DNA of 64,000 nucleotides, taken from assembly GCA_938743325.2 (NCBI GenBank), contig OW568901.1, positions 248,001-312,000 of the forward strand, in the 5' to 3' direction. Positions 2,237-54,722 of this stretch are shown piece after piece (within the stretch, counting starts at the first letter, position 1; each line of letters opens with the position of its first letter). The notes beneath the pieces are model-generated. The model worked only from the letters and a program-made list of their open reading frames with translations. It did not search any database and had not been told where the DNA came from. A program made the translations under genes and the position numbers. The DNA is from Pycnococcus provasolii (Eukaryota; Chlorophyta; Pseudoscourfieldiophyceae; Pseudoscourfieldiales; Pycnococcaceae).

Positions 2237-2450
2237 TCCGTCGTTCCCCTCCCCTCCGAGACGTCGTCTTCGTCCGGGGCAAACGAATGCCGGTTCGCGC
2301 CCAACCGGCACCGCGCCATGGCCTCTCTCTCTCTCTCTCTCTCACGTGTGCCCGTGCAGTCTGCCTGGCTCTGTCTCAGCGATGTGTCAGGCTCGAACAC
2401 ACGTGTTAGCCGCAACTCTCACTCCTTGCACCGCTCATTCACTCCGCCTC

Positions 2451-2480
2451 TTTGCCACTCTTTGCCACTCTTTGCCACTC
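2451..2480. repeat. 10-bp tandem repeat, three copies
   Basis: Three consecutive identical 10-bp units (TTTGCCACTC phase) followed by a diverged partial fourth. Non-coding; function unknown. Confidence 0.85.
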
Positions 2481-2810
2481 TTCGCTCTCGCCGTGGACTG
2501 AACTGAACTCTAACTTCTTGGCTCTTGGGTTCTTGGTGACTGTCTCTTGGTGACGTCCTTTCGTAGCGTTACCGGCACACCCTCCAGTGGCACTCTCAAG
2601 AAGCTCATGGTGCTTTCTCCCAAGCAGTTGCTTGCGCTCTTGTTGTACGGTTTCATGCGCCGCGGCTTCCTTGTACCAACCTCAATTCTCGCACACACTG
2701 CCAATCATTCTTCAACTTCAAAGGACATTTGACGGTGATAGTGGCGGACGGACGACAGCGCTGCTCTACTCCACACTCAAAAAACAAAAAAAGGAAGGTT
2801 GCAAGAACAT

Positions 2811-3059
2811 ATGGGCTGGCCTGAGAAGCTGAGGGCGATGATCAAGAGTCAGGCGCGGTTCGCAGCACGTGCGAAAAAACGCGCACAGGAATATGATAGC
2901 GAAGAGATGGCGATGGTGGACGAAGAGTGCGCGGCAGTTTCGCAGCTCACGAGCTCGATCAGCCACAACGACATGCCACAGCGCACAGCCACACTCCAGG
3001 TGAGTTTCTTTTTTCTCGTTTTGTTTGTTCTTTCGCAACTACGCTGACACACACACACC

Positions 3060-3101
<42 letters not shown>

Positions 3102-4443
3102 CGTGTAGTCTCTGCACATCGACGGCCCTATCATCGCGCCTCTGTGTCCCACGTCCATGCGCCACAAGACGAAGTGGGCTCTGCCAGGCTTCCAAATCTT
3201 TCGCAGCTGTGGCGGTGGGCGGCACAGCTGCGTGTACAGCGCGTGCTGCCGGGCGACGGGCGTGAACGTCGCACTTAAGGTGTACCACTGGTACGAGCTG
3301 AGCGCAATCAACGTCGAGCAGGTGCAGCGCGAGGTGGCGCTGCAAGGATGCCTTAAGCACCCGAATGCCGTGCCGCTGTACGCCGCGTTCGCCGACGGGC
3401 AGAACGTCGTGCTTGCGATGGAGTACGCCGCGGGCGGTGACGTGTACAAGAAGCTGCACCGCCACGGACGGTACGCGGAGCGCGACGCGGTGGCGCAGGT
3501 GATTCTGCCCGTGTTGGACTTCTTCCAGTACATGCACGCGAAAGGGTTCATCCACCGCGACCTCAAGCCCGAGAACCTGCTGCTCACGGAGAAGGGCGTG
3601 CTGAAGGTTGCGGACTTCGGTCTGAGCATCGACGCAAAAAGCGAGCGGCCGGTGACACGGCTCGGCACGCTCGACTACATGTCGCCTGAGGTTCTCGCGT
3701 GCCCCGACAAGAGCCTGCTCGACAAGCACACGCAGGTCGCGGAGGCTGAGAGGGTGGCGTACTCGTGGAACGCGGACATCTGGGGCGTGGGCGTGCTCGC
3801 TCACGAGATTCTGACGGGGCACGCGCCATTCGAGGCGAAGAATCGCGAGCAGACGAGCGCAAGAATCTCCAAAAACCAGCGCGATCCGCTGCCCTCTTGC
3901 TTCTCTGACCAGGCGAGGAGCTTCGTGGAGGCGTGCATGCATCCGTGCGCCGCAGCTCGTCAGCCAGCCTCAGAGCTTCTGCGCCATCCTTGGATTACTG
4001 CCAACAGGCCGCGCGTGGATCCACGTTCGGCGGACGAGCGGACGAGCTCGGAGAATGCGTTAAAGAAGTCTGCTCCGCGCCCCACGCTGCTGTACGTGCC
4101 CGCGCCGCTTCCCCCGCCGGCGATAGCCCCGGGCGAGCTGGATGCGACGAATGTTGCCGCGTCGATCATTCCGTCTGGTCAAACCAACCAGCAGCACGTG
4201 CGATTTGCAAGCAAGGCGCGCCTTGAGCGTGCCAAGACGCACGCGGACTTGAATGTTGCCGCGGCGCATCAAGTGCAGCAAGCAAACTCGCGCGCTCTTG
4301 CGAAGGAGATTCTGCGACGGCGCACGGCGGTATCGAACAACCACTCCGTCAGGAGCAGCCAGTCAGTTAAGTCGTCGCATCACGGAAACAAGACGGGCCC
4401 TTCGAATTTGGCCAAGGTGCTCGCTCAGTACCTGGCGCACTAG
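2811..4443 (+). CDS. Aurora-like Ser/Thr protein kinase, 507 aa, two exons
   Basis: Exon 1 is 2811-2999 and exon 2 is 3109-4443. The intron 3000-3108 has GTGAGT and TGTAG ends and splits the frame in phase 0, joining TATLQ to SLHID. The kinase domain has a slightly degenerate glycine loop (about residues 96-104), VALK lysine at about 120, HRDLKPEN at about 210, DFG at about 232, and a T-loop ending GTLDYMSPEV. That last motif and the final HPWI are typical of Aurora and related AGC/CAMK-border kinases. A basic N-terminal tail (residues 1-80) and a basic, low-complexity C-terminal tail (residues about 365-507) flank it. All catalytic residues are present, so it should be active. Aurora kinases control mitosis, but the assignment below the kinase level is inference. 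The intron carries a long CAA microsatellite. Confidence 0.88.
3059..3100. repeat. CAA trinucleotide microsatellite in intron
   Basis: Fourteen or so uninterrupted CAA units occupy the 3' half of the kinase intron and end just before its acceptor. On the opposite strand this gives a poly-Cys/poly-Val artefact frame. Confidence 0.95.
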
Positions 4444-18563: not shown

Positions 18564-18641
18564 CCTAACCCTAACCCTCTAACCCTAACCCTAACCCTCT
18601 AACCCTAACCCGAACTCGCTAACCCTAACCCTAACCCTAAT
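18564..18641. repeat. Interstitial CCCTAA array (about 11 units)
   Basis: Blocks of two to three CCCTAA units separated by CT or CGAACTCG interruptions, 45 bp upstream of the uS13 start. On the uS13 sense strand it reads TTAGGG. Confidence 0.95.
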
Positions 18642-18799
18642 CCCTCCCTCCCTCCCCCCTGGGGATTGAGACTCTGGGATGAGGAACATGACGAACTGGG
18701 CGCGCACGTCACATTCATGGCGTGAATAGTCTATTCGAAGAAATAGTCGTCTGTGTAGCTTAATAGAGCTCGTTCATACGCACGCCGTCTTTGCTTACT

Positions 18800-19585: not shown

Positions 19586-19912
19586 GATCACGACCCGACG
19601 AAGAATGGCTTCCGGAATCCGAAGAAGAAGGGGCTGGAAAGAACAAAGAACAAAGGAAACAAGACTACAAAGAGAGAGAGAGAACCCTAACCCTAACACC
19701 CTAACCCTAACCCTAACACCCAAACCCTATCATCGTAATAAGGTACCCGGTAAAGGTACGGTGTCTCTTCTCTTCTTTTCGCGCCTAGGGCCCTCCTCTT
19801 CAGAGGTGTTTCTTTTCGCCGCCATTCATTCTTCGCCGAAGATTCGCCAGAAACACCTCTAAAAGAGGTCGTCATCAGGACACCAACAAGCAAAGCAGTA
19901 GGAAGGTTCTGG
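19586..19912. other. Divergent spacer between PDI and WD40 gene
   Basis: Holds the CCCTAA array at 19683-19730 and otherwise nothing recognisable. Both flanking genes start from this spacer. Confidence 0.5.
19683..19730. repeat. Interstitial CCCTAA array with CCCTAACA variants
   Basis: Seven or so CCCTAA-type units, two of them extended by AC, 100 bp upstream of the PDI start; TTAGGG on the PDI sense strand. Confidence 0.95.
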
Positions 19913-28363: not shown

Positions 28364-29812
28364 ATGGGATGCGGGGCGAGTACCCCCATAGACTATAGTG
28401 AATATGTAATTCAGGCGCGCCCTCCAGCACAGGCGCAGGCAAGTGCGCAGTCTCGTGGTGGAGCAAGCACCGCCAACGCTAGCGGGGCAAGTAGTACAGG
28501 CGGCTCAGGAGGGGAGAATTTGCACGACCTGATTAAGCGCAAGAACTGGGACGGCTTGCGTGCACGCATCCAAAGCAACCCTGGAGAGGTGAGACAGAAG
28601 GACTTTAGCGGGTGGTTCCCTCTGCACAGAGCGGCATACAACGGAGCTCCCTTGGACGTGGTGCGTTACCTCGTGGAGCAGTATCCTGACGGCGTGAGAG
28701 AGAAGGACGACAACGGGCAGCTCCCCCTGCACGAGGCAGCCGGGAATGCTCCCTTGGACGTGGTGCGCTACCTCGTGGAGAAGTATCCTGACAGCGTGAG
28801 AGAGAAGAACGCCATCGGTGATGGGATGCTCCCCCTGCACAATGCGGCATTCCACGGAGCTCCCTTGGACGTGGTGCGTTACCTCGTGGAGCAGTATCCT
28901 GATAGCGTGAGAGAGAATATCGGCAGCAGCGGGATGGTCGCCCTGCACTGGGCGGCTGGGAATGCTCCCTTGAACGTGGTGCGTTACCTCGTGGAGCAGT
29001 ATCCTGACGGCGTGATGCAGAAGGACAGCGTCGGGAATCTCCCCTTGCACGACGCAGCCTTTAAAGCTCCCTTGGACGTGATGCGCTACCTCGTGGAGCA
29101 GTATCCTGACGGCGTGAGAGAGAAGAGCAACGGCGGGAGTCTCCCCCTGCACGCGGTGGTATGCAACAAAGCAGCAAACTTGGATGTGGTGCGTTGCCTC
29201 GTGGAACAGTATCCTCAAGGCGTACACGTGCGTGGAGAAGAGAACAAAACCCCGCTTGAACGGGCAGAAGAAAGAGAGGCCTCCTCCGAAGTGATTGCGT
29301 TGTTAAAACAGGCGGAGACGGCAGGCATTAACTCACCTGGTGCATGGGATGTATTTATCAGTCACTGCCAACGTGACGCGAATGCCGTCGTGATGGCCGA
29401 GGCTCTGTTCGCGAGTTTTGAGAAACGTGGATTGCGCGTGTGGCTTGATGTGAAGATGAAGAAGCGCGATGTCGCAGCAATGGAGGAGGGTGCCAAAAAC
29501 TCGACGATGGTGCTTGCGATCGTCACAGGCGGCGGCGACAATCCCGATCACGCATTTTTCCGCCGCGACTTTTGCCTCCAAGAGCTGAGATGGGCGCAGA
29601 GCGTCGGCGCATCAATCCAGCCCGTGATTACGGTTGACGACAAGAAGCGCGTCGGCGAATTCCTGAGCGCTGCCCCATCTGACTTGCAAGCTCTCGGTCA
29701 AGTAGACTGGATCGATATGAATCGCGGCGCCGTGCAATACTGGGAGGTTGGCGTGGACATGCTTGAGGAACGCTTGGAGGAAGCGCGAGCGACAAGGCAA
29801 CGGCAACGTTAA
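28364..29812 (+). CDS. Ankyrin repeat - TIR domain protein, probably myristoylated
   Basis: 482 residues starting MGCGAS, a myristoylation/palmitoylation signal. After a low-complexity linker come six to seven ankyrin repeats (about residues 60-300), most with the core LPLHxAA..APLDVVRYLVEQYPDGVREK and strikingly alike in sequence. A TIR domain follows at about 325-475: WDVFISHCQRDAN (first strand and box 1), GLRVWLDVKMKK (box 2-like), AIVTGGG, and FCLQELRWA, where the Glu of CLxEL corresponds to the catalytic glutamate of plant and animal TIR NADases. Ankyrin repeats would recognise a partner and the TIR would signal. The function in this organism is inferred only. The unit is unlike the plant TIR-NB-LRR order and closer to algal and animal TIR/ankyrin proteins. 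Confidence 0.88.
   Translation: MGCGASTPIDYSEYVIQARPPAQAQASAQSRGGASTANASGASSTGGSGGENLHDLIKRKNWDGLRARIQSNPGEVRQKDFSGWFPLHRAAYNGAPLDVVRYLVEQYPDGVREKDDNGQLPLHEAAGNAPLDVVRYLVEKYPDSVREKNAIGDGMLPLHNAAFHGAPLDVVRYLVEQYPDSVRENIGSSGMVALHWAAGNAPLNVVRYLVEQYPDGVMQKDSVGNLPLHDAAFKAPLDVMRYLVEQYPDGVREKSNGGSLPLHAVVCNKAANLDVVRCLVEQYPQGVHVRGEENKTPLERAEEREASSEVIALLKQAETAGINSPGAWDVFISHCQRDANAVVMAEALFASFEKRGLRVWLDVKMKKRDVAAMEEGAKNSTMVLAIVTGGGDNPDHAFFRRDFCLQELRWAQSVGASIQPVITVDDKKRVGEFLSAAPSDLQALGQVDWIDMNRGAVQYWEVGVDMLEERLEEARATRQRQR
28606..29230 (+). repeat. Tandem ankyrin-coding repeats, about 100-108 bp each
   Basis: Six copies of a unit coding for the same ankyrin core, with long stretches of identical nucleotides (the GACGTGGTGCGTTACCTCGT core recurs). 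Recent duplication or gene conversion would explain the sameness. Confidence 0.85.
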
Positions 29813-35902: not shown

Positions 35903-35911
35903 AACAAGTTT
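35903..35911. repeat. Target site duplication, left
   Basis: AACAAGTTT, repeated exactly at 38933-38941 on the other side of the transposon. Nine base pairs is the usual Mutator-type duplication length. Confidence 0.9.
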
Positions 35912-36073
35912 GGGAGAAATACAGTACGCCCCGAGCCAGAAAATCGAAATTGCAGTACGCCCCGTTTTCGTCCTAGTTCGCCCCGGAAAGAAATCCTAAT
36001 TACAGTACGCCCCGGTCTGAAATTCTAACCCTAACCCTAACCCCAACCCACTGTATTCTGTCGTTGTCCGGTT
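35912..36073 (+). repeat. Left terminal inverted repeat of MULE
   Basis: 162 bp, inverted copy of 38771-38932. Inside are four related blocks, three containing CAGTACGCCCC or ACAGTACGCCCC and one TAGTTCGCCCC, spaced 30-45 bp; these are probable transposase binding sites. The inner part carries CCCTAA-type units at 36029-36051. Confidence 0.95.
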
Positions 36074-36114
36074 GTTGCCACTTCGGAAGGAACTCCTTAT
36101 CCTCACCGTATCTC

Positions 36115-38724
36115 TCATTCTTCTCCAGATTCTTCTTGGGGCATCATGAACTCCTCCTCTTCATTCTCGTCGTCCTCATCTCCTCCAGGGAGCGCCAAAG
36201 TCGTGTCGTGAGCTGTGAGACTGAACTTTGGGCACTGCTTTGAGCGTGCATTGTGGCCTTTCATGCCACACACTTTGCACTTGTGCTGCTTGGCTGCATC
36301 CTCCACGGCGCTGAGATGCCTCTTCGGCTCTGCAGGACGGCCTTTTGGGCGAGGGCCTGCGACAGGATCCTTCAACGGGTGTTCAGGGAGTAGCGCAAGA
36401 TCCGCTATGCACGGGATTGTTTTGCCTGCACGCCATTGGTGTACATACTCCCACTGCTCACGCCATCGCTTAGTAGTCTCCTGCGGCGGCAAAAACTTCG
36501 CAAGATCCACACCAGCAGACTTCGCGGCGCTCGCAAGAGAAACGCAGAAAGGACCTCCCACAATTTCAGGACGACAGCAAGTACACGTACCGTCATTTAG
36601 GTTCACTGTTTGGCAGATCCCTGGATACGACTTGTGCCACACTTTGGCGACACGTCGCAGGTTGTTTTGAAACACAACGACGCGGTCGCGGACCTTCTTT
36701 TTCGCCTCGCCGCCTGAGTTGAGCAGGAGACGAATCTTTGGCGGAGCGGCGTCAGTTCGTTTAGCCGCCGCCGCAATTCTTTTCTCCGTCTGGTTCTCGA
36801 TTCCGTCCATCAGGTTCAAGAAACTTTGCACCACGTTCGCGTTGTGACGGACGCTCTGGTTTGTCATCCAATTGTTCCAAGACTCAGCTGGGGAGGATAC
36901 GGCATATCCGCGGAGATGCGCACCAGCTTCAAAAGCCGCGCGAAGATACTGACATTTGTCCGGCAGCTTTTCCAAGTACGCCTTTGTTTGGGCGTTCATG
37001 ATGCTCTTCGCGTGCGCGAGCTTCGCCGCAGAGTATCCGTACACAGCCTCACGATACGCGTCGCGCCCTGCCGAGCCGACGCCGGGCTGGACGCGTACGT
37101 TTTCGCTGCGGTGTCTTTCGCACGAAAACCCAAGCATGTTCGGGAACACCTCCGCACGGGACGGCTTCAGGCCCTTATCTCCGTCGGTGATGTTTGCATG
37201 GGTGCTGACATCAAGAGCAGGATAATGTTCTTTCACGGCGCGGTAATGACTCGTCCAACTTTCCTTGTCTTCATTCATGATAGTCCAGGTGACACACATT
37301 GGAAGCAAATGGCGATTCGCGTCAAGTGTCGTAGTCGAGAGGAAAGTTCCTCCGAACGCACCCTCGCTATGCGCTCCATCTGCAAAGCTCGGAGTCTTCT
37401 CGACGAGCCCAGCGTTCCACAAAGCTTTGATTGCACCTGGTACGTACGTGTACCCAGTGAGGTATTCACCCCCTTCGTCGGTTATGTGTTCTGTGTTAGG
37501 CTCGACGAATGGAGTCTTTGCTTTATCAGGTAGATCCTTCTCCTTGAGCTCATGCTCTGCCTTCATGCGCGCCTTGTAGATCTTTTTCATCCCCTCCGCG
37601 TTCGTCGTGTGCACCGTGAGGTGACCGATGCCAGATGCGTTCACCAATTCAGCCAACGGCTTGAATTTGCTTGCAGATAAGGAGGCGGAGGCGAGCGCCT
37701 TCGCCTCCTTCAAGACCTTACCAGCGAACGCGTTCGTGACATCCTTCCCCACGTACGGCTGTACGTGGGCGACTGCATCGTTCGGCTTCATGTTGGCGTT
37801 CCTCGCCAGGGCCTCGGTCAATACGGGCGCGAGTTCGGGAGCAGTGTAAGCGTGGAAGTTTCCTTTCTTCTTGAACTCCGGCAAGACAACGCAAGTGTGG
37901 GCCTCGTGGGCCTTGCACAACCACTTGCCGTGGCAAAGTCTGAAAGATGTTTTGAAGGCACAGCCCTTTACAGGGCAAAGTGCGCGAACAAAATCAGCAC
38001 TTTTTTGGCCTTTTCCATTAGGTCCGTCAGAGAAAGACAAAGCTTTCTTGTCTCTCTCTGCACACGCCTTAATGTTCGCAAGTACTGCACTGCGGTGCGG
38101 ATAAGTTGTTGACCCAGCCACAAAGGTAACGTGCTCCGCCTCGCTGACTCTCATTGGCTTCAAAGGGCTTTCCATTTTCAAAATCTCAGCAGCCTCCTCC
38201 CGCCGCCTTTGCTGAAGCTCCTTCTTCACCTTCTTCTTTTCCGGAGTTGAAATTGGGGATACTTGAGCTGGACGTCCACGTCGCCTTTGTGTACTAGCAT
38301 CCTCAGGATCATGCGCACCGTCTGCCGGAGGATCATGCGCACCGTCTGCCGGAGGTTCAAGCGCACCGTCTGCCGGAGGATCATGTGCATCGTCTGCCGG
38401 AGGTTCAAGCGATTCCGCTGCCGGAGGATCATGTGCATCGTCTGCCGGAGGTTCAAGCGCTTCCTTTGCAAGATCACCCCGCGTTTGAACTCCTCCACGT
38501 GCACGGCGCGTAGAGTGTGCCCGAGTCCTTGAAGCATCGTATTCTCCAACGCCACGACTTGAACCAGCTTGCGCGGTAAACAACGCGCGACTTGTAGCCG
38601 CAGATCGTCGTGTAGCTCCTCGCGATGTTGATGTCTGTGTGTTGTTCTCACGATTAAGTTGCAGCAATGTTGCTGCGACGTTCCCACTTGGACTAGCTAG
38701 TACGGCACGCTGCCTGGGTGCCAT
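36115..38724 (-). CDS. MULE transposase, 869 aa
   Basis: The single gene of the transposon. The N-terminal 200 residues are low-complexity with eight or so EPPADDAHDPPA-type repeats and a basic nuclear-signal-like stretch. A zinc-binding module of the WRKY-GCM1/FLYWCH type follows (CPVKGCAFKTSF then CKAHEAHTC). The DDE catalytic domain has SFADGAHSEG (first Asp), NITDGDKGL (second Asp) and a later Glu, probably the one in SSPAESWNNWM. After it come CTCC...FC, a SWIM-like cysteine motif, and a CCHC zinc knuckle (CKVCGMKGHNARSKQC) near the acidic C-terminus. Transposases of this kind cut and paste the element between its inverted repeats. No frameshift or stop interrupts it. Confidence 0.95.
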   Translation of the reverse strand: MAPRQRAVLASPSGNVAATLLQLNRENNTQTSTSRGATRRSAATSRALFTAQAGSSRGVGEYDASRTRAHSTRRARGGVQTRGDLAKEALEPPADDAHDPPAAESLEPPADDAHDPPADGALEPPADGAHDPPADGAHDPEDASTQRRRGRPAQVSPISTPEKKKVKKELQQRRREEAAEILKMESPLKPMRVSEAEHVTFVAGSTTYPHRSAVLANIKACAERDKKALSFSDGPNGKGQKSADFVRALCPVKGCAFKTSFRLCHGKWLCKAHEAHTCVVLPEFKKKGNFHAYTAPELAPVLTEALARNANMKPNDAVAHVQPYVGKDVTNAFAGKVLKEAKALASASLSASKFKPLAELVNASGIGHLTVHTTNAEGMKKIYKARMKAEHELKEKDLPDKAKTPFVEPNTEHITDEGGEYLTGYTYVPGAIKALWNAGLVEKTPSFADGAHSEGAFGGTFLSTTTLDANRHLLPMCVTWTIMNEDKESWTSHYRAVKEHYPALDVSTHANITDGDKGLKPSRAEVFPNMLGFSCERHRSENVRVQPGVGSAGRDAYREAVYGYSAAKLAHAKSIMNAQTKAYLEKLPDKCQYLRAAFEAGAHLRGYAVSSPAESWNNWMTNQSVRHNANVVQSFLNLMDGIENQTEKRIAAAAKRTDAAPPKIRLLLNSGGEAKKKVRDRVVVFQNNLRRVAKVWHKSYPGICQTVNLNDGTCTCCRPEIVGGPFCVSLASAAKSAGVDLAKFLPPQETTKRWREQWEYVHQWRAGKTIPCIADLALLPEHPLKDPVAGPRPKGRPAEPKRHLSAVEDAAKQHKCKVCGMKGHNARSKQCPKFSLTAHDTTLALPGGDEDDENEEEEFMMPQEESGEE

Positions 38725-38770
38725 GGGCTCGAAATGTTTTGGCGCGAGAAATGGACAAAAAGGTCCAAAA

Positions 38771-38932
38771 AACCGGACAACGACAGAATACAGTGGGTTG
38801 GGGTTAGGGTTAGGGTTAGAATTTCAGACCGGGGCGTACTGTAATTAGGATTTCTTTCCGGGGCGAACTAGGACGAAAACGGGGCGTACTGCAATTTCGA
38901 TTTTCTGGCTCGGGGCGTACTGTATTTCTCCC
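38771..38932 (-). repeat. Right terminal inverted repeat of MULE
   Basis: 162 bp, inverted copy of 35912-36073, including the TTAGGG-type units at about 38795-38820 and the CAGTACGCCCC-type blocks. Confidence 0.95.
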
Positions 38933-38941
38933 AACAAGTTT
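38933..38941. repeat. Target site duplication, right
   Basis: AACAAGTTT, identical to 35903-35911. Confidence 0.9.
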
Positions 38942-40789: not shown

Positions 40790-40904
40790 CGTGTACAAAA
40801 TAAATAAAATAAATAAAAATAATGAAATGGAATGAAGACGTGTGTTGTGTGACAGATGATTTGAATCCCGGATTTTATCCGTTCGGGACAAGTCACAAGC
40901 AAAA

Positions 40905-40979
40905 GGGCTAGGGTTACGGGTTAGGGTTACGGGTTGTAAGGGTTAGGGTTGTAAGGGTTAGGGTTACGGGTTAGGGTTT
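40905..40979. repeat. Interrupted TTAGGG array
   Basis: Seven TTAGGG units alternating with TTACGGG and GTAAGGG variants, about 310 bp upstream of the NACHT-WD40 ATG and in the same order pattern as the array at 38989. Confidence 0.92.
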
Positions 40980-41287: not shown

Positions 41288-44200
41288 ATGGGGTGTGCGT
41301 CGTCATCAGAGACATCAGTGGCGGCGGTACACGGCATTGATGCGGCGTTGTTGGCGGAGTCAACAGCGGTGCCAGTCAAGCCACCTAGTAGGCAAATCTT
41401 CGATGATGATGCGAAGAATCAGGCGCAGGAACACTCGTCCGAGTCGCCCGTGTACCGCGCAGTCGCTTTAGCTTGGCTTGCACAGTTTGTTAAGGCGCAC
41501 GACGGAACGACGCAAAGCTGGGACGTCGTCAAGGAGTTTATGAGTGAGGAGGATGGAGGTGGCCAGGATGCGGTCTTAACGGTGACACCGCACAATCTTG
41601 AGACGCACCGCGATAAGCGACGAGCTGCTGAGAAAGCAAAGAGTGGCAAGCCGGTTCCGGTGCAGTACCGTGACATTCCGTTCGAACAGATGTACACGAC
41701 GGATATCGTCGAGTGCTTCGTGCGTTCGCTGGCACGCAAAGAGCACATGAGCTACGCGCAAGCGAAGAACCTTCCTGTGGGCGCGCCGTCGTACTTTGTC
41801 TCGCACGCGTGGGGAAGCACTTTCGTCGACCTCGTGAAGAGCGTGACTGGGGCACTCGCAGGCGCTGCTCAAAACGATACGTACGTGTGGCTGGACATTT
41901 TCGCCATCAACCAGGACGATACGGGTGGCGTGTTTTCGGCGATGGCTGAACTAGATGATGGCAAGACGCTCGCAAGCACCGTGGAAACATCGCGCGCGAC
42001 GCTCGTCGTGCTGGATAAGGAGCGCGTCATCCCGCTGACGAGATTGTGGTGCCTATACGAGATCGGGTCGACACCACCGCAGAAGCTGCAACTCGTCACG
42101 CACGGGTTCTCGGAAAAGGACGTGTCGCATCACATTCGTAATATCGACGCGGAGACGGCGCTGTGCTTTTCGGAAGACGATAAGAAGATGATTCGCGGCG
42201 AAATCACGGGCAAATTTAAGTTTGAGAGTCTGAAGCACTTCACGGAGGAGCTCAAGCTGCGTTTCATGCTCCGTCCGATGAGCTATGAGTCGGATTTGCA
42301 GGCGCTGCGAGAACGTGGACAGAGCAACAACTACCAGCTGGACGAGCTGCGTGCACATGTGACGTCGACCGGTGGACGTCTTGCATGCATTGTTGGCGGA
42401 CCAGGCGAGGGCAAGTCGAGCGTGGCTGCGGCAGCCCTCGACTTGGTTCACGCGTCACACTTCTGCAAACGTGCTGATGTCAGGCGCCAGGACGTGCTTG
42501 AGATGGTGAGGTCGCTTGGCTTTCAGCTTGGTCAACGATTTGACGTTGTTCGCGAATGCTTGATTGATCTAGAGGAAGATACCGCCGCGAAGGCGCTCGT
42601 TGACCCGGATGTCGCGGTGAATGCGCTTTTGGTGGATCCGCTGAAAAAACTTGCTAAAATTCAAAAGCATGCGGTGATTTTGCTGGATGCGCTCGACGAG
42701 GCGGACGATGACCGGCACATCTCCAATGCTGCAGTCGGGTTGCTTCGGCATCTCGCTCGTGATGTGCGCTCGAGTGTCTCTGTGCTTGTGACGACGCGCC
42801 CAGATGCGGATGGGGACTATCCTCGTCGACGTGTGCTGGAGCACGATTGGGAGGGGGGCATGTGCGTGATGGAGCCTGCACAAGTTCTTGGACCGGCCCC
42901 GGTGGAAGTGAAAAAGGAGGAGAGTCGCCTTCCAGGACCCTGGGAAGAGGCGATGCGCAACATGCAGAGCATAAAGGTGTACCAGATTGTTGCTCGCGAG
43001 TTTGTCAAGCGGCATGGAACGAGCTCGAAGTCACCACCTGCGGACATTGATGCCGCGTATAAGCTTTGGTTTGATCGCGCAGCGAAGGATGACGAGGATG
43101 TTCGTCGGCTGATTGACATTGTGCTCGCTTCGCGTGAACCTCTCTCGTCAGCGCATGTTGATAGATTGCGTTTGCGAGAGACGTGTGAGCACCTACCTGG
43201 TTGGGGACTGCTGTTTGAAGAGCGCGATCACCTGCTGCAGACGTTGCACTTGTCACTGCGTGAATTTTTAGGAGACGCGAAGCGATCAGGTGAGCACGCA
43301 GCAGACGTATTTCGTGGACATCGTGAGCTGGCGCGATCGTGCCTGGACATTTTGAAACGTGGCGACGACGAGAAGGGGCCGGCTGTGGCATATTCCTTGC
43401 GACATGCACACGCGCACTTGACCGAGGCGGTTGAGAAGATGCAGCATGGTGACGATGAGACGTTGGCGATAAATGTGATGAAGGAGTGGCATGCTGCGTT
43501 TATGGTTGATCGTGAAAAGGAGGCGTCGATGATTCCTGAGGGATACGAGGCGTCACCGTGGTGTGCGACAGAGTTTGCGGGTCTGTGGTTGAAGCGTCAG
43601 ATGGAGGCAGGTCGAAGAGGTGTGCTCGTGGTGGAATTGCTGCGCCTCGAGAAGGCGCTATTGGAAGCGAAAAACAAGTTCGCGAATGATGCTACTGGGT
43701 TGATGGCGACTGTGGAATCGATGCATGCCTTTGTTCGCGTACTTCGGTGGGGAGTTGGGACGTATTCGGAGGTTGGATTGATTGCGGCGAATCTGCCGTG
43801 TACGAGTGCATGGCATCAGAGTCCAGGACAGAGGGTGCTGTCGTCTTGTACGCCAAGTCTTTGCATACCAGCTCGTGTGGATATTGATGCTACGATATTG
43901 AACAACATGAATAGCCATTCTTCTGGGGTGACTTCCGCATCGTATTCCGCGGATGGTACGCGCATCGTCTCCGCGAGCTTTGACACTACCGTTCGCGTCT
44001 GGGACGCGACGACAGGCGCGTGCATATCTGTGCTGGAAGGCCATTCTAGTGTGGTGACTTCCGCCTCGTATTCCGCGGATGGGACGCGCATCGTCTCCGC
44101 GAGCTGGGACAAGAGCGTTCGCGTCTGGGACGCGACGACCGGCGCGTGTATATCAGTGCTGGAAGGCCATACTCGTGCGGTGAGTTCCGCCTCGTATTCC

Positions 44201-45649
44201 GCGGATGGGACGCGCATCGTCTCCGCGAGCGACGACTCGACCATTCGCATCTGGGACGCGACGACCGGCGCAAGTATATCTGTGCTGGAAGGCCATTCTG
44301 GTGTGGTGACTTCCGCATCGTATTCGGCGGATGGGACGCGCATCGTCTCCGCGAGCGTGGACAAGACCGTTCGCGTCTGGGACGCGACGACCGGCGCGTG
44401 TATATCTGTGCTGGAAGGCCATTCTAGTACGGTGACTTCCGCATCGTATTTCGCGGATGGTACGCGCATCGTCTCCGCGAGTGACGACAAGACTGTTCGC
44501 GTGTGGGACGCGACGACCGGCGCGTGTGTATCTCTGCTGGAAGGCCATTCTGATCGGGTGCTTTCCGCATCGTATTCGGCGGATGGGACGCGCATCGTCT
44601 CCGCGAGCGACGACTCGACCGTTCGCATCTGGGACGCGACGACCGGCGCAAGTATATCTGTGCTGGAAGGCCATTCTGGTGTGGTGAACTCAGCGTCGTA
44701 TTCCGCGGATGGGACGCGCATCGTCTCCGCGAGCGACGACTCGACCGTTCGCATCTGGGACGCGACGACCGGCGCAAGTATATCTGTGCTGGAAGGCCAT
44801 TCTCGTGCGGTGACTTCCGCATCGTATTCCGCGGATGGGTTGCGCATCATCTCCGCGAGCAAGGACAAGACCATTCGCGTGTGGGACGCGACGACCGGCG
44901 CGTGTTTATCAGTGCTGGAAGGCCATTCTGATCGGGTGCTTTCCGCATCGTATTCTGCGGATGGGACGCGCATCGTCTCCGCGAGCCACGATAAGACCGT
45001 TCGCATCTGGGACGCGACGACCGGCGCGTGTGTATCTGTGCTGATAGGCCATTCTGATTGGGTGTTTTCCGCCTCGTATTCCGCGGATGGGACGCGCATC
45101 GTCTCCGCGAGCGACGACTCGACCGTTCGCATCTGGGACGCGACGACCGGCGCAAGTATATCTGTGCTGGAAGGCCATTCTGGTGTGGTGAACTCAGCGT
45201 CGTATTCCGCGGATGGGACGCGCATCGTCTCCGCGAGCGACGACTCGACCGTTCGCATCTGGGACGCGACGACCGGCGCAAGTATATCTGTGCTGGAAGG
45301 CCGTTCTCGTGCGGTGACTTCCGCATCGTATTCCGCGGATGGGTTGCGCATCATCTCCGCGAGCAAGGACAAGACCATTCGCGTCTGGGACGCGACGACC
45401 GGCGCGTGCATATCTGTGCTGGAAGGCCATTCTGATATGGTGTATTCCGCATCGTATTCCGCGGATGGTACACGCATCGTCTCCGCGAGCGGGGACGAGA
45501 CCGTTCGCGTGTGGGACGCGACGACGGGTGCGTGTCTATCTGTGCTGGAAGGCCATTCTGATGGCGTGACTTCCGCATCGTATTCCGCGGATGGGACGCG
45601 CATCGTCTCCGCGAGCGAGGACAAGACCGTTCGCGTGTGGGATGTATGA
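41288..45649 (+). CDS. NLR-like STAND protein: TIR/HET-like effector domain - NACHT - 14 WD40 repeats
   Basis: 1453 residues from the ATG at 41288, chosen because it gives MGCASSSE, a myristoylation-type N-terminus; the frame is open 12 codons earlier. An N-terminal effector-like domain (about residues 60-330) has SYFVSHAWG at about 168, YVWLDIFAINQDD and RLWCLYEIGS, motifs reminiscent of both TIR and HET domains. A NACHT-type NTPase follows with P-loop GGPGEGKSS at about 370 and Walker B VILLDALDEA at about 463, then VLVTTRPDAD as sensor 1. A helical linker leads to 14 WD40 repeats of 42 residues from about 875 to the end. Such STAND receptors oligomerise on sensing a ligand through the WD40 part and activate the effector domain. 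The function here is inferred from the architecture. No intron or break is seen. Confidence 0.93.
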   Translation: MGCASSSETSVAAVHGIDAALLAESTAVPVKPPSRQIFDDDAKNQAQEHSSESPVYRAVALAWLAQFVKAHDGTTQSWDVVKEFMSEEDGGGQDAVLTVTPHNLETHRDKRRAAEKAKSGKPVPVQYRDIPFEQMYTTDIVECFVRSLARKEHMSYAQAKNLPVGAPSYFVSHAWGSTFVDLVKSVTGALAGAAQNDTYVWLDIFAINQDDTGGVFSAMAELDDGKTLASTVETSRATLVVLDKERVIPLTRLWCLYEIGSTPPQKLQLVTHGFSEKDVSHHIRNIDAETALCFSEDDKKMIRGEITGKFKFESLKHFTEELKLRFMLRPMSYESDLQALRERGQSNNYQLDELRAHVTSTGGRLACIVGGPGEGKSSVAAAALDLVHASHFCKRADVRRQDVLEMVRSLGFQLGQRFDVVRECLIDLEEDTAAKALVDPDVAVNALLVDPLKKLAKIQKHAVILLDALDEADDDRHISNAAVGLLRHLARDVRSSVSVLVTTRPDADGDYPRRRVLEHDWEGGMCVMEPAQVLGPAPVEVKKEESRLPGPWEEAMRNMQSIKVYQIVAREFVKRHGTSSKSPPADIDAAYKLWFDRAAKDDEDVRRLIDIVLASREPLSSAHVDRLRLRETCEHLPGWGLLFEERDHLLQTLHLSLREFLGDAKRSGEHAADVFRGHRELARSCLDILKRGDDEKGPAVAYSLRHAHAHLTEAVEKMQHGDDETLAINVMKEWHAAFMVDREKEASMIPEGYEASPWCATEFAGLWLKRQMEAGRRGVLVVELLRLEKALLEAKNKFANDATGLMATVESMHAFVRVLRWGVGTYSEVGLIAANLPCTSAWHQSPGQRVLSSCTPSLCIPARVDIDATILNNMNSHSSGVTSASYSADGTRIVSASFDTTVRVWDATTGACISVLEGHSSVVTSASYSADGTRIVSASWDKSVRVWDATTGACISVLEGHTRAVSSASYSADGTRIVSASDDSTIRIWDATTGASISVLEGHSGVVTSASYSADGTRIVSASVDKTVRVWDATTGACISVLEGHSSTVTSASYFADGTRIVSASDDKTVRVWDATTGACVSLLEGHSDRVLSASYSADGTRIVSASDDSTVRIWDATTGASISVLEGHSGVVNSASYSADGTRIVSASDDSTVRIWDATTGASISVLEGHSRAVTSASYSADGLRIISASKDKTIRVWDATTGACLSVLEGHSDRVLSASYSADGTRIVSASHDKTVRIWDATTGACVSVLIGHSDWVFSASYSADGTRIVSASDDSTVRIWDATTGASISVLEGHSGVVNSASYSADGTRIVSASDDSTVRIWDATTGASISVLEGRSRAVTSASYSADGLRIISASKDKTIRVWDATTGACISVLEGHSDMVYSASYSADGTRIVSASGDETVRVWDATTGACLSVLEGHSDGVTSASYSADGTRIVSASEDKTVRVWDV
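43912..45646 (+). repeat. 126-bp tandem repeats coding for WD40 blades, 14 copies
   Basis: Each unit codes for GHSxxVxSASYSADGTRI, SASxDxTVRVWDATTGAC and a linking ISVLE. Copies are almost identical in DNA except at a few codons. Repeats 6-8 and 10-12 form nearly the same three-unit block, so part of the array was duplicated as a block. The last unit ends at the stop codon. Confidence 0.97.
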
Positions 45650-54634: not shown

Positions 54635-54722
54635 ATTAGGGTTAGGGTATTAGGGTTAGGGTTAGGGTTAGGGTTAGGGTTAGGGTTAGGGTTAGGGTTA
54701 GGGTTAGGGTTAGGATTAGGGT
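54635..54722 (+). repeat. Longest interstitial TTAGGG array (about 14 units)
   Basis: Eleven uninterrupted TTAGGG units with a variant at each end, 118 bp before the ATG of the next gene and in sense orientation. Confidence 0.97.

Follow-up and report, generated by a model that had tools for sequence, protein, structure and literature searches.

A 64,000-nucleotide stretch of the marine green alga Pycnococcus provasolii (GenBank assembly GCA_938743325.2, contig OW568901.1, positions 248,001–312,000; the whole stretch is called the window below) carries, at window positions 41288–45649, a gene whose product combines an N-terminal effector-like domain, a NACHT-type NTPase and 14 WD40 repeats. 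We consider it probable, judging from sequence, that this gene belongs to a family of intracellular receptors resembling nucleotide-binding oligomerization domain-like receptors (NLRs), in which a double-propeller sensor diversifies by repeat exchange and selection, much as fungal HNWD proteins work.

The frame is uninterrupted and encodes 1453 aa, from the ATG at 41288 to the TGA at 45647–45649. A mechanical call of the open reading frame (ORF) starts at TTG 41252; the ATG at 41288 gives the MGC start common to most paralogues. The features are:

41288–45649, plus strand: complete gene, one open frame, 1453 aa (ORF reading)
41288–41305, plus strand: MGCASS start (sequence comparison with paralogues)
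41435–42277, plus strand: N-terminal effector-like domain, residues ~50–330, about 280 residues (conserved motifs)
41801–41812, plus strand: SHAW, conserved motif of the N-terminal domain
within 41885–41914, plus strand: W-x-D-x-F...INQ, conserved motif of the same domain
42041–42061, plus strand: R-L-W-C-L-x-E, conserved motif of the same domain
42362–42799, plus strand: core of the NACHT-type NTPase of the STAND (signal transduction ATPases with numerous domains) class, NPHP3_N (Pfam and motifs)
42395–42421, plus strand: Walker A
42674–42709, plus strand: Walker B
43094–43426, plus strand: winged-helix-like segment (HTH_TANC1 at 20.6 bits, under the cut-off of 27)
43913–45646, plus strand: WD40 array, 14 repeats of 126 bp (repeat finding and Pfam)
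44543–44920, plus strand: repeats 6–8, first copy of an internal duplication
45047–45424, plus strand: repeats 10–12, second copy of that duplication

The NPHP3_N model matches residues 359–504 with 55.0 bits (cut-off 24.8). The NACHT model itself scores 24.1 bits here, under its cut-off of 26.7, and is over the cut-off in the paralogues C7, C21 and C30 (family members are named by contig). The two NTPase motifs, which we take to be Walker A and Walker B, read GGPGEGKSS (residues 370–378) and VILLDALDEADD (residues 463–474). With this P-loop STAND NTPase set between an N-terminal domain and C-terminal repeats, the protein has the tripartite layout of NLR-like STAND/NACHT proteins, and Pfam marks 14 WD40 stretches in it. 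A first-pass annotation made from the DNA alone had thus read both the NTPase with its intact Walker motifs and the number of repeats correctly. Repeat k starts at 43913+126(k−1) and repeat 14 is short (32 aa). Tandem Repeats Finder reports a 126-bp unit in 13.7 copies at 43914–45642 with 87% matches; the array is homogenised, as had been claimed, and calling its repeats nearly identical in DNA was somewhat overstated. An antisense frame of 612 aa over the array mirrors the repeat periodicity and was not counted as a gene.

Variable codons of the WD40 repeats

Amino-acid entropy over the 42 positions of the unit is highest at positions 23, 5, 4, 7 and 25 (3.47 to 2.26 bits); the next, position 38, reaches 1.50 bits. 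This ranking was taken over 121 repeats from ten genes, a set that included a few misaligned repeats of C23a and C7. The first-pass annotation had named 4, 5, 7 and 23 and missed 25. A filtered set from ten genes kept 124 repeats and dropped 13; for codon counting we used 111 complete repeats of nine genes, without C30 and C33 and also without C32, whose array we treat as a copy (see below).

At the five variable codons of this set, the proportion of nonsynonymous differences (pN) is 0.564 (bootstrap over genes 0.52–0.59) and that of synonymous differences (pS) is 0.334. Scaffold codons give a pN of 0.051 and a pS of 0.159, and at codons adjoining the variable ones pS is not raised (0.127). 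The ratio of variable-codon pN to scaffold pS is 2.96–4.29 (bootstrap over genes). These values bear on a neutral explanation, according to which the propeller was lately amplified from one blade and its variable sites are unconstrained loops. Young, highly repetitive propellers are indeed widespread, and their discoverers think that some never became useful (PMC9218822); loops are, moreover, the least constrained parts of a propeller. However, relaxed constraint by itself would put this ratio close to 1, so a pN at 3.0–4.3 times scaffold pS, next to adjoining codons that are not raised, counts against neutrality. One scaffold consensus and mostly 14 units over genes and strains also fit maintained arrays, not separate young amplifications. 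We therefore regard neutral amplification as very unlikely.

Codon 4 has T as its third base in 98 of the 111 repeats, while its first two bases are near saturation. The near-constancy of this base could point to codon-localised hypermutation rather than selection as the source of the diversity. Selection likewise predicts it, however, and third bases do vary at codons 5, 7, 23 and 25. We consider hypermutation very improbable. Retroelement-like targeted mutagenesis, weighed for the same third bases, was not adopted, with no search made for a reverse transcriptase or template repeat.

An AlphaFold2 model of the array has a mean predicted local distance difference test score (pLDDT) of 83.7 and a predicted template modelling score of 0.57. 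The propeller fold of the array is clear, its best solved match being 2ymu, a 'highly repetitive propeller' that we take to be of bacterial origin (E 1.6e-40, 41% identity). This structure likewise consists of near-identical WD40 blades and differs in being a solved propeller alone, so the likeness to the array is structural. Two rings of seven blades would accommodate the 14 units, a ring number not taken from coordinates. In repeat 2 of the model the strands occupy unit positions 6–11, 17–22, 26–31 and 37–42. By this reading the d–a loop contains positions 4 and 5, strand a has position 7 at its beginning, and the b–c turn contains 23 and 25. Codon counts and model thus agree with the expected bias of variation towards the propeller face. 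Algal codons 5, 7, 23 and 25 correspond, with an offset that is our own reading of the motifs, to HNWD codons 7, 9, 25 and 27, described as being under positive selection (PMC1805685, PMC2873952) and located by Paoletti et al. in the d–a loop and b–c turn, at the propeller top (PMC1805685). At the four algal codons, pairwise counting with bootstrap over genes, without a codon model, gives a selection signal of the HNWD type. The likeness to fungal HET-E/HNWD receptors that the first-pass annotation had noticed therefore holds at the level of corresponding codons.

A dispersed family and probable repeat exchange

We searched a genome of 32,333,900 bases on 46 contigs; the published genome of P. 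provasolii CCAP190/2 is given as 32.2 Mb and 44 chromosomes (PMC11130579). It was assembled from PacBio HiFi reads at 444-fold coverage with a quality value (QV) of 58.2 (PMC11130579), so the array is probably assembled correctly. The named close homologues belong to Pseudoscourfieldia marina and P. provasolii, with two weak ones from Volvox africanus; together with the published genome they confirm the algal host that had been guessed from the letters.

There are 12 dispersed genes of this NACHT–WD40 kind, and the suggested search for paralogues with the same N-terminal domain thus had a positive outcome. The 11 besides the window gene have N-parts 79–90% identical and sit on ten other contigs (two on C23), accompanied by truncated copies and fragments. 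Long arrays are present in 11 of the 12. By parser count, eight arrays have 14 units; C23a has 13 plus a 91-residue gap that fits one more, C12 has 12, and 12 were parsed in the degenerate C30 array. The remaining gene, C33 (L015, C33:271244–273982), stops within its first WD40 repeat, where its frame seems shifted; it is likely a pseudogene. Read from the first MGC, ten of the 12 genes start with MGC(A/G)(A/S)S. The C44 and C3 genes begin with an EF-hand-like segment, and Pfam EF-hand models match their counterparts P0007 and P0010.

The N-terminal domain of the family also heads proteins with arrays of 42-aa TPR units. A search for this branch gave 13 N-domain matches at 35–41% identity, and eight loci were retrieved. 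All four loci scanned by Pfam have TPR arrays, and EF-hands are among the families listed for two; no NACHT domain was found in these four proteins, one of them judged on its best 25 families. In the TPR unit, pN is highest at positions 17, 27, 30, 37, 40 and 41 (0.43–0.65; 42 units of seven loci, L058 left out). A related protein, P0023, which has a counterpart on C7, combines an EF-hand, NPHP3_N and ankyrin repeats. Two further loci, L049 (C42:145154–148870) and L050 (C15:471000–475022), 80% identical over 764 aa, join a TIR_2 match to long WD40 arrays related to that of the window gene. A broken piece of the family N-part is also carried by seven dispersed copies (L025–L036, on C2, C3, C4, C5, C13, C15 and C31), six of which are 98.6–99.5% identical over 2.5–2.8 kb among the pairs listed (C31 is not among these); they probably represent a recently spread mobile element.

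Several observations point to exchange of repeats. Scaffold nucleotide difference is 0.0747 within genes versus 0.0809 between genes, a gap reached by none of 2000 label permutations. When repeats of different genes are compared, those with equal number (0.0808, n=421) are no closer than those with unequal number (0.0809, n=5050); by this sequence comparison, paralogue arrays have no positional homology. In the window gene, repeats 6–8 and 10–12 are 97.6% identical over 378 nt, and one and the same DNA sequence makes up its repeats 7 and 11 as well as repeat 4 in the C7 paralogue. The C21 and C32 genes agree at 0.94 of variable sites across the whole array (alignment z 16.5, as defined below), with N-parts 93.0% identical. 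Their DNA, in 200-nt bins, is 91–97% identical up to nucleotide 2400, 97–100% from 2400 to 4000 and ~96% in the final two bins, a profile suggesting that the array was probably copied recently between these loci on chromosomes 21 and 32. Within the genome, 13 repeat pairs share all five variable residues versus 1.2 expected (118 repeats, without C32; columns taken as independent). The idea that specificity evolves by repeat exchange is thus supported by the internal duplication, the array copy and the repeat shared with C7. These three do not specifically imply unequal crossing over, the mechanism that the first-pass annotation had cited for the fungal receptors; gene conversion would account for them equally well.

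Inverted copies of the 5′ flank and 5′ part lie beside four of the 12 family genes: L019/L022 and L014/L021 on C23, L018/L024 on C3 and L013/L047 on C32. Their arms measure 1.5–3.3 kb, are 97.6–99.9% identical and are separated by spacers of 3.2–4.2 kb; the second C23 pair extends to the edge of the retrieved stretch. Within the stretches tested, no inverted arms of at least 100 nt were found at the other eight family loci, including the window gene. These copies are the basis of a further reading, in which a dedicated, array-directed process rewrites WD40 and TPR arrays on a common effector as units between loci, aided by the inverted 5′ copies, and so gives closely related strains largely unrelated repertoires on one chassis. 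We think this unlikely, and any part of the inverted copies in array exchange would be purely conjectural.

Arrays compared between strains

For six genes the public proteins include a clear counterpart; these strain proteins are deposited gene models. For each pair we list N-part identity, in-register identity at the variable sites and z, the order-preserving alignment score of variable sites; random repeat pairs have a variable-site identity of 0.195.

C41–P0002: N-part 95.0%, variable sites 0.23, z −0.1
C12–P0004: N-part 97.0%, variable sites 0.27, z 2.5
C6–P0008: N-part 96.1%, variable sites 0.18, z −0.7
C7–P0006: N-part 95.7%, variable sites 0.10, z −0.7
C44–P0007: N-part 93.1%, variable sites 0.20, z −1.3
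C3–P0010: N-part 91.4%, variable sites 0.16, z −1.4

At the level of these protein sequences, five of the six pairs have no detectable array order, with N-parts 91–97% identical across the set. In-register scaffold identity of the pairs (0.87–0.92) is the same as that of random pairs (0.90). Repeat number differs between C12 (12) and P0004 (14) and between C6 (14) and P0008 (13), and is otherwise mostly 14. Identical arrays in divergent strains, which the first-pass annotation had considered telling against its proposal, were not seen in this comparison. Not scored were C21–P0005 (P0005 has two repeats), C23a, C23b, C30 and C32, which are without a clear counterpart, and C33 (listed with P0008), which has a single repeat. 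The method does detect conservation where it is present: besides C21–C32, the TPR pair L055–P0039 served as a positive control, with N-parts 99.3% and variable sites 0.97 identical, and not every such gene turns over. The remaining TPR best matches, for which orthology is unsure, have N-parts 84–93% identical and in-register variable sites 0.13–0.43 (random 0.19); their unit numbers differ between strains, e.g. 10 in L057 and 5 in P0032.

Such strain differences could also arise if the compared proteins were different paralogues or if arrays were mis-assembled. Orthology was deduced from protein similarity and like-sized contigs, the strain proteins are gene models, and highly conserved repeats are described as defeating short-read assembly (PMC12222747). 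On the other hand, N-terminal ends pair one-to-one: in the two outermost 50-aa bins, identity is 92–100% in the six pairs versus means of 65% (outermost bin) and 84% in 13 paralogue pairs. Over the 50 aa just ahead of the array, identity falls to an average of 86% in the six pairs versus 82% in paralogues. The HiFi data behind the CCAP190/2 assembly likewise argue against assembly error, and mis-assembly would alter the number and order of repeats, not their residue combinations, of which four are common to the strains versus 1.7 by chance (five-residue combinations; 118 repeats here and 108 of eight strain proteins). We consider hidden paralogy or assembly error quite unlikely to explain the differences. 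Since so few combinations are shared, exchange of a common stock of units is insufficient, and new mutation under selection must contribute to the turnover.

Some points weigh against diversification by repeat exchange and selection, or at least limit it. The within/between-gene contrast of scaffolds, though consistent, is small. Counting of pN and pS is approximate near saturation, and pS is raised at the variable codons too. The C12–P0004 pair retains its first repeat (z 2.5), and in the C12 and C7 pairs identity does not drop just before the array (96% and 94%). Strain-pair orthology rests on protein similarity, N-terminal ends and like-sized contigs, not synteny; a search for the neighbouring DGAT gene for synteny gave a single protein, which comes from a short sequencing contig and has 97% identity over 75%. 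With 14 units in eight arrays, length polymorphism is weak compared with the fungal genes, and the TPR-branch gene L055 is conserved between strains. Finally, no match of the effector domain to TIR or HET is significant, and the structure model of this domain is poor.

Effector domain, proposed working and related systems

The N-terminus had been described as TIR/HET-like. Its 345 aa match no Pfam TIR or HET model at E≤10. A HET search of the whole genome gave no match, but controls were silent too, and a remote HET relation is possible. Searched against PDB, a seven-sequence profile had a single match at E≤5, in which its SHAW...VWxD part aligned with the TIR protein 3h16 (E 0.41). Aligned by hhalign with four TIR domains, the profile scored 30.1 (P 0.0013) at an HHsuite probability of just 18.5%; the best of 44 decoys (one reversed, 40 column-shuffled, NACHT, DGAT and TPR) scored 25.5. 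The alignment pairs Glu258 (in RLWCLYE) with the 'C-L-x-E' glutamate of TIR domains, a catalytic residue in those TIRs that cleave NAD. Foldseek with a model of the domain (mean pLDDT 63) gave chance-level matches alone (best E 0.76). The TIR side of the description thus has weak profile similarity behind it and the HET side has none, and we tentatively call the domain TIR-like rather than TIR. The MGCASS start looks to us like an N-myristoylation/palmitoylation signal. HET relatives outside fungi, green algae among them, and a HET–TIR relation have been reported (PMC4986451).

In the general NLR scheme as outlined in PMC12222747, sensor binding leads to NTPase-driven oligomerisation and effector activation. 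From the sequence, we infer that the algal gene may likewise serve as a receptor. Its repeats would form a pair of seven-bladed propellers that bind a protein or some other ligand on their upper faces; binding would release nucleotide-dependent oligomerisation of the NACHT part, and the oligomers would cluster the TIR-like domains, so triggering defence or cell death, perhaps at a membrane via the MGC start. Exchange of repeats, both inside a gene and from one gene to another, would regroup units while keeping the scaffold uniform, and diversifying selection on the five codons would yield new specificities.

A variable-repeat sensor might instead serve a non-immune role, such as sensing of symbionts or prey, mating or cell-fusion compatibility, or scaffolding of a signalling complex. 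The architectural counterparts in fungi are described as working in heterokaryon incompatibility (PMC12222747), and the sequence does not say which non-self is recognised. Nothing speaks directly against such roles, but the TPR branch, which shares the N-terminal domain and has variable sites of its own, argues for a general recognition repertoire, not one fixed partner. A non-immune role seems to us possible and rather unlikely.

The closest known systems are the HNWD/NWD genes of Podospora anserina (het-d, het-e and het-r), which likewise join an N-terminal effector and NACHT to WD40 repeats of 42 aa/126 bp. These are described as a ten-gene family with concerted evolution, unit exchange between genes and a proposed double seven-bladed propeller, much as here (PMC1805685, PMC2873952, PMC12222747). 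The algal gene has the 42-aa WD40 repeats of high internal conservation that define HNWD proteins; we do not file its family among them because the HET domain that also defines them finds no match. Further differences are the green algal host, the NPHP3_N-type NTPase, the MGC or EF-hand start, 14 conserved repeats versus 11 conserved and three cryptic ones, the absence of positional similarity in five of six ortholog pairs and the TPR branch sharing the effector. Homogenised 42-aa WD and TPR units with selected variable sites also occur in those fungal NLRs whose WD, ANK or TPR repeats are highly conserved (PMC4986451), whereas no NACHT was found in the four algal TPR proteins scanned, one of them judged on its best 25 families. 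According to the same survey, highly conserved repeats are very scarce in Viridiplantae, at 0.4% of repeats (PMC4986451). NTPase and WD40 repeats are likewise combined in Chlamydomonas NACHT–WD40 and in red and green algal NB-WD40 proteins, and the available parts of those reports mention no homogenised arrays or variable codons (PMC4773052, PMC7145615). Brown algal ROCO-LRR genes likewise encode putative immune receptors, with shuffled repeats whose surface is under positive selection, but they have one LRR per exon, exon shuffling with splicing and other domains, whereas the Pycnococcus gene is a single open frame (PMC11378527).

NLR-like proteins whose repeat sensors evolve fast have been documented best in fungi, and the same codon-level pattern now appears in a picoplanktonic green alga. 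Among the open-licence papers listed, we found none describing a green alga that combines homogenised WD40 arrays, variable codons of this kind and their apparent replacement between strains, which does not imply that the combination is unpublished. Together with that replacement, the pattern would suggest strain-specific recognition repertoires in single-celled primary producers. Pycnococcus, culturable and with a long-read genome, offers a system in which to ask whether phytoplankton recognise viruses, bacteria, parasites or one another, and by what route two distant lineages came to one solution.

The window holds another receptor-like repeat gene, an ankyrin–TIR protein gene at 28364–29812, 11.5 kb upstream, with a 102-bp tandem repeat at 28646–29153; genome-wide, TIR_2 has 18 matches at E≤1, 16 of them over the cut-off. 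A MULE-type transposon occupies 35910–38934, ~2.4 kb upstream of the gene. Its terminal inverted repeats measure 167 nt and are 99% complementary, and it has a transposase frame at 36115–38724 on the minus strand (MULE model 25.1, just under the cut-off of 27.6). Interstitial telomere-like arrays of the TTAGGG/CCCTAA type lie at 941–979, 18564–18645, 19683–19729, 40904–40978 and 54636–54722; the gene has one such array a short way upstream.

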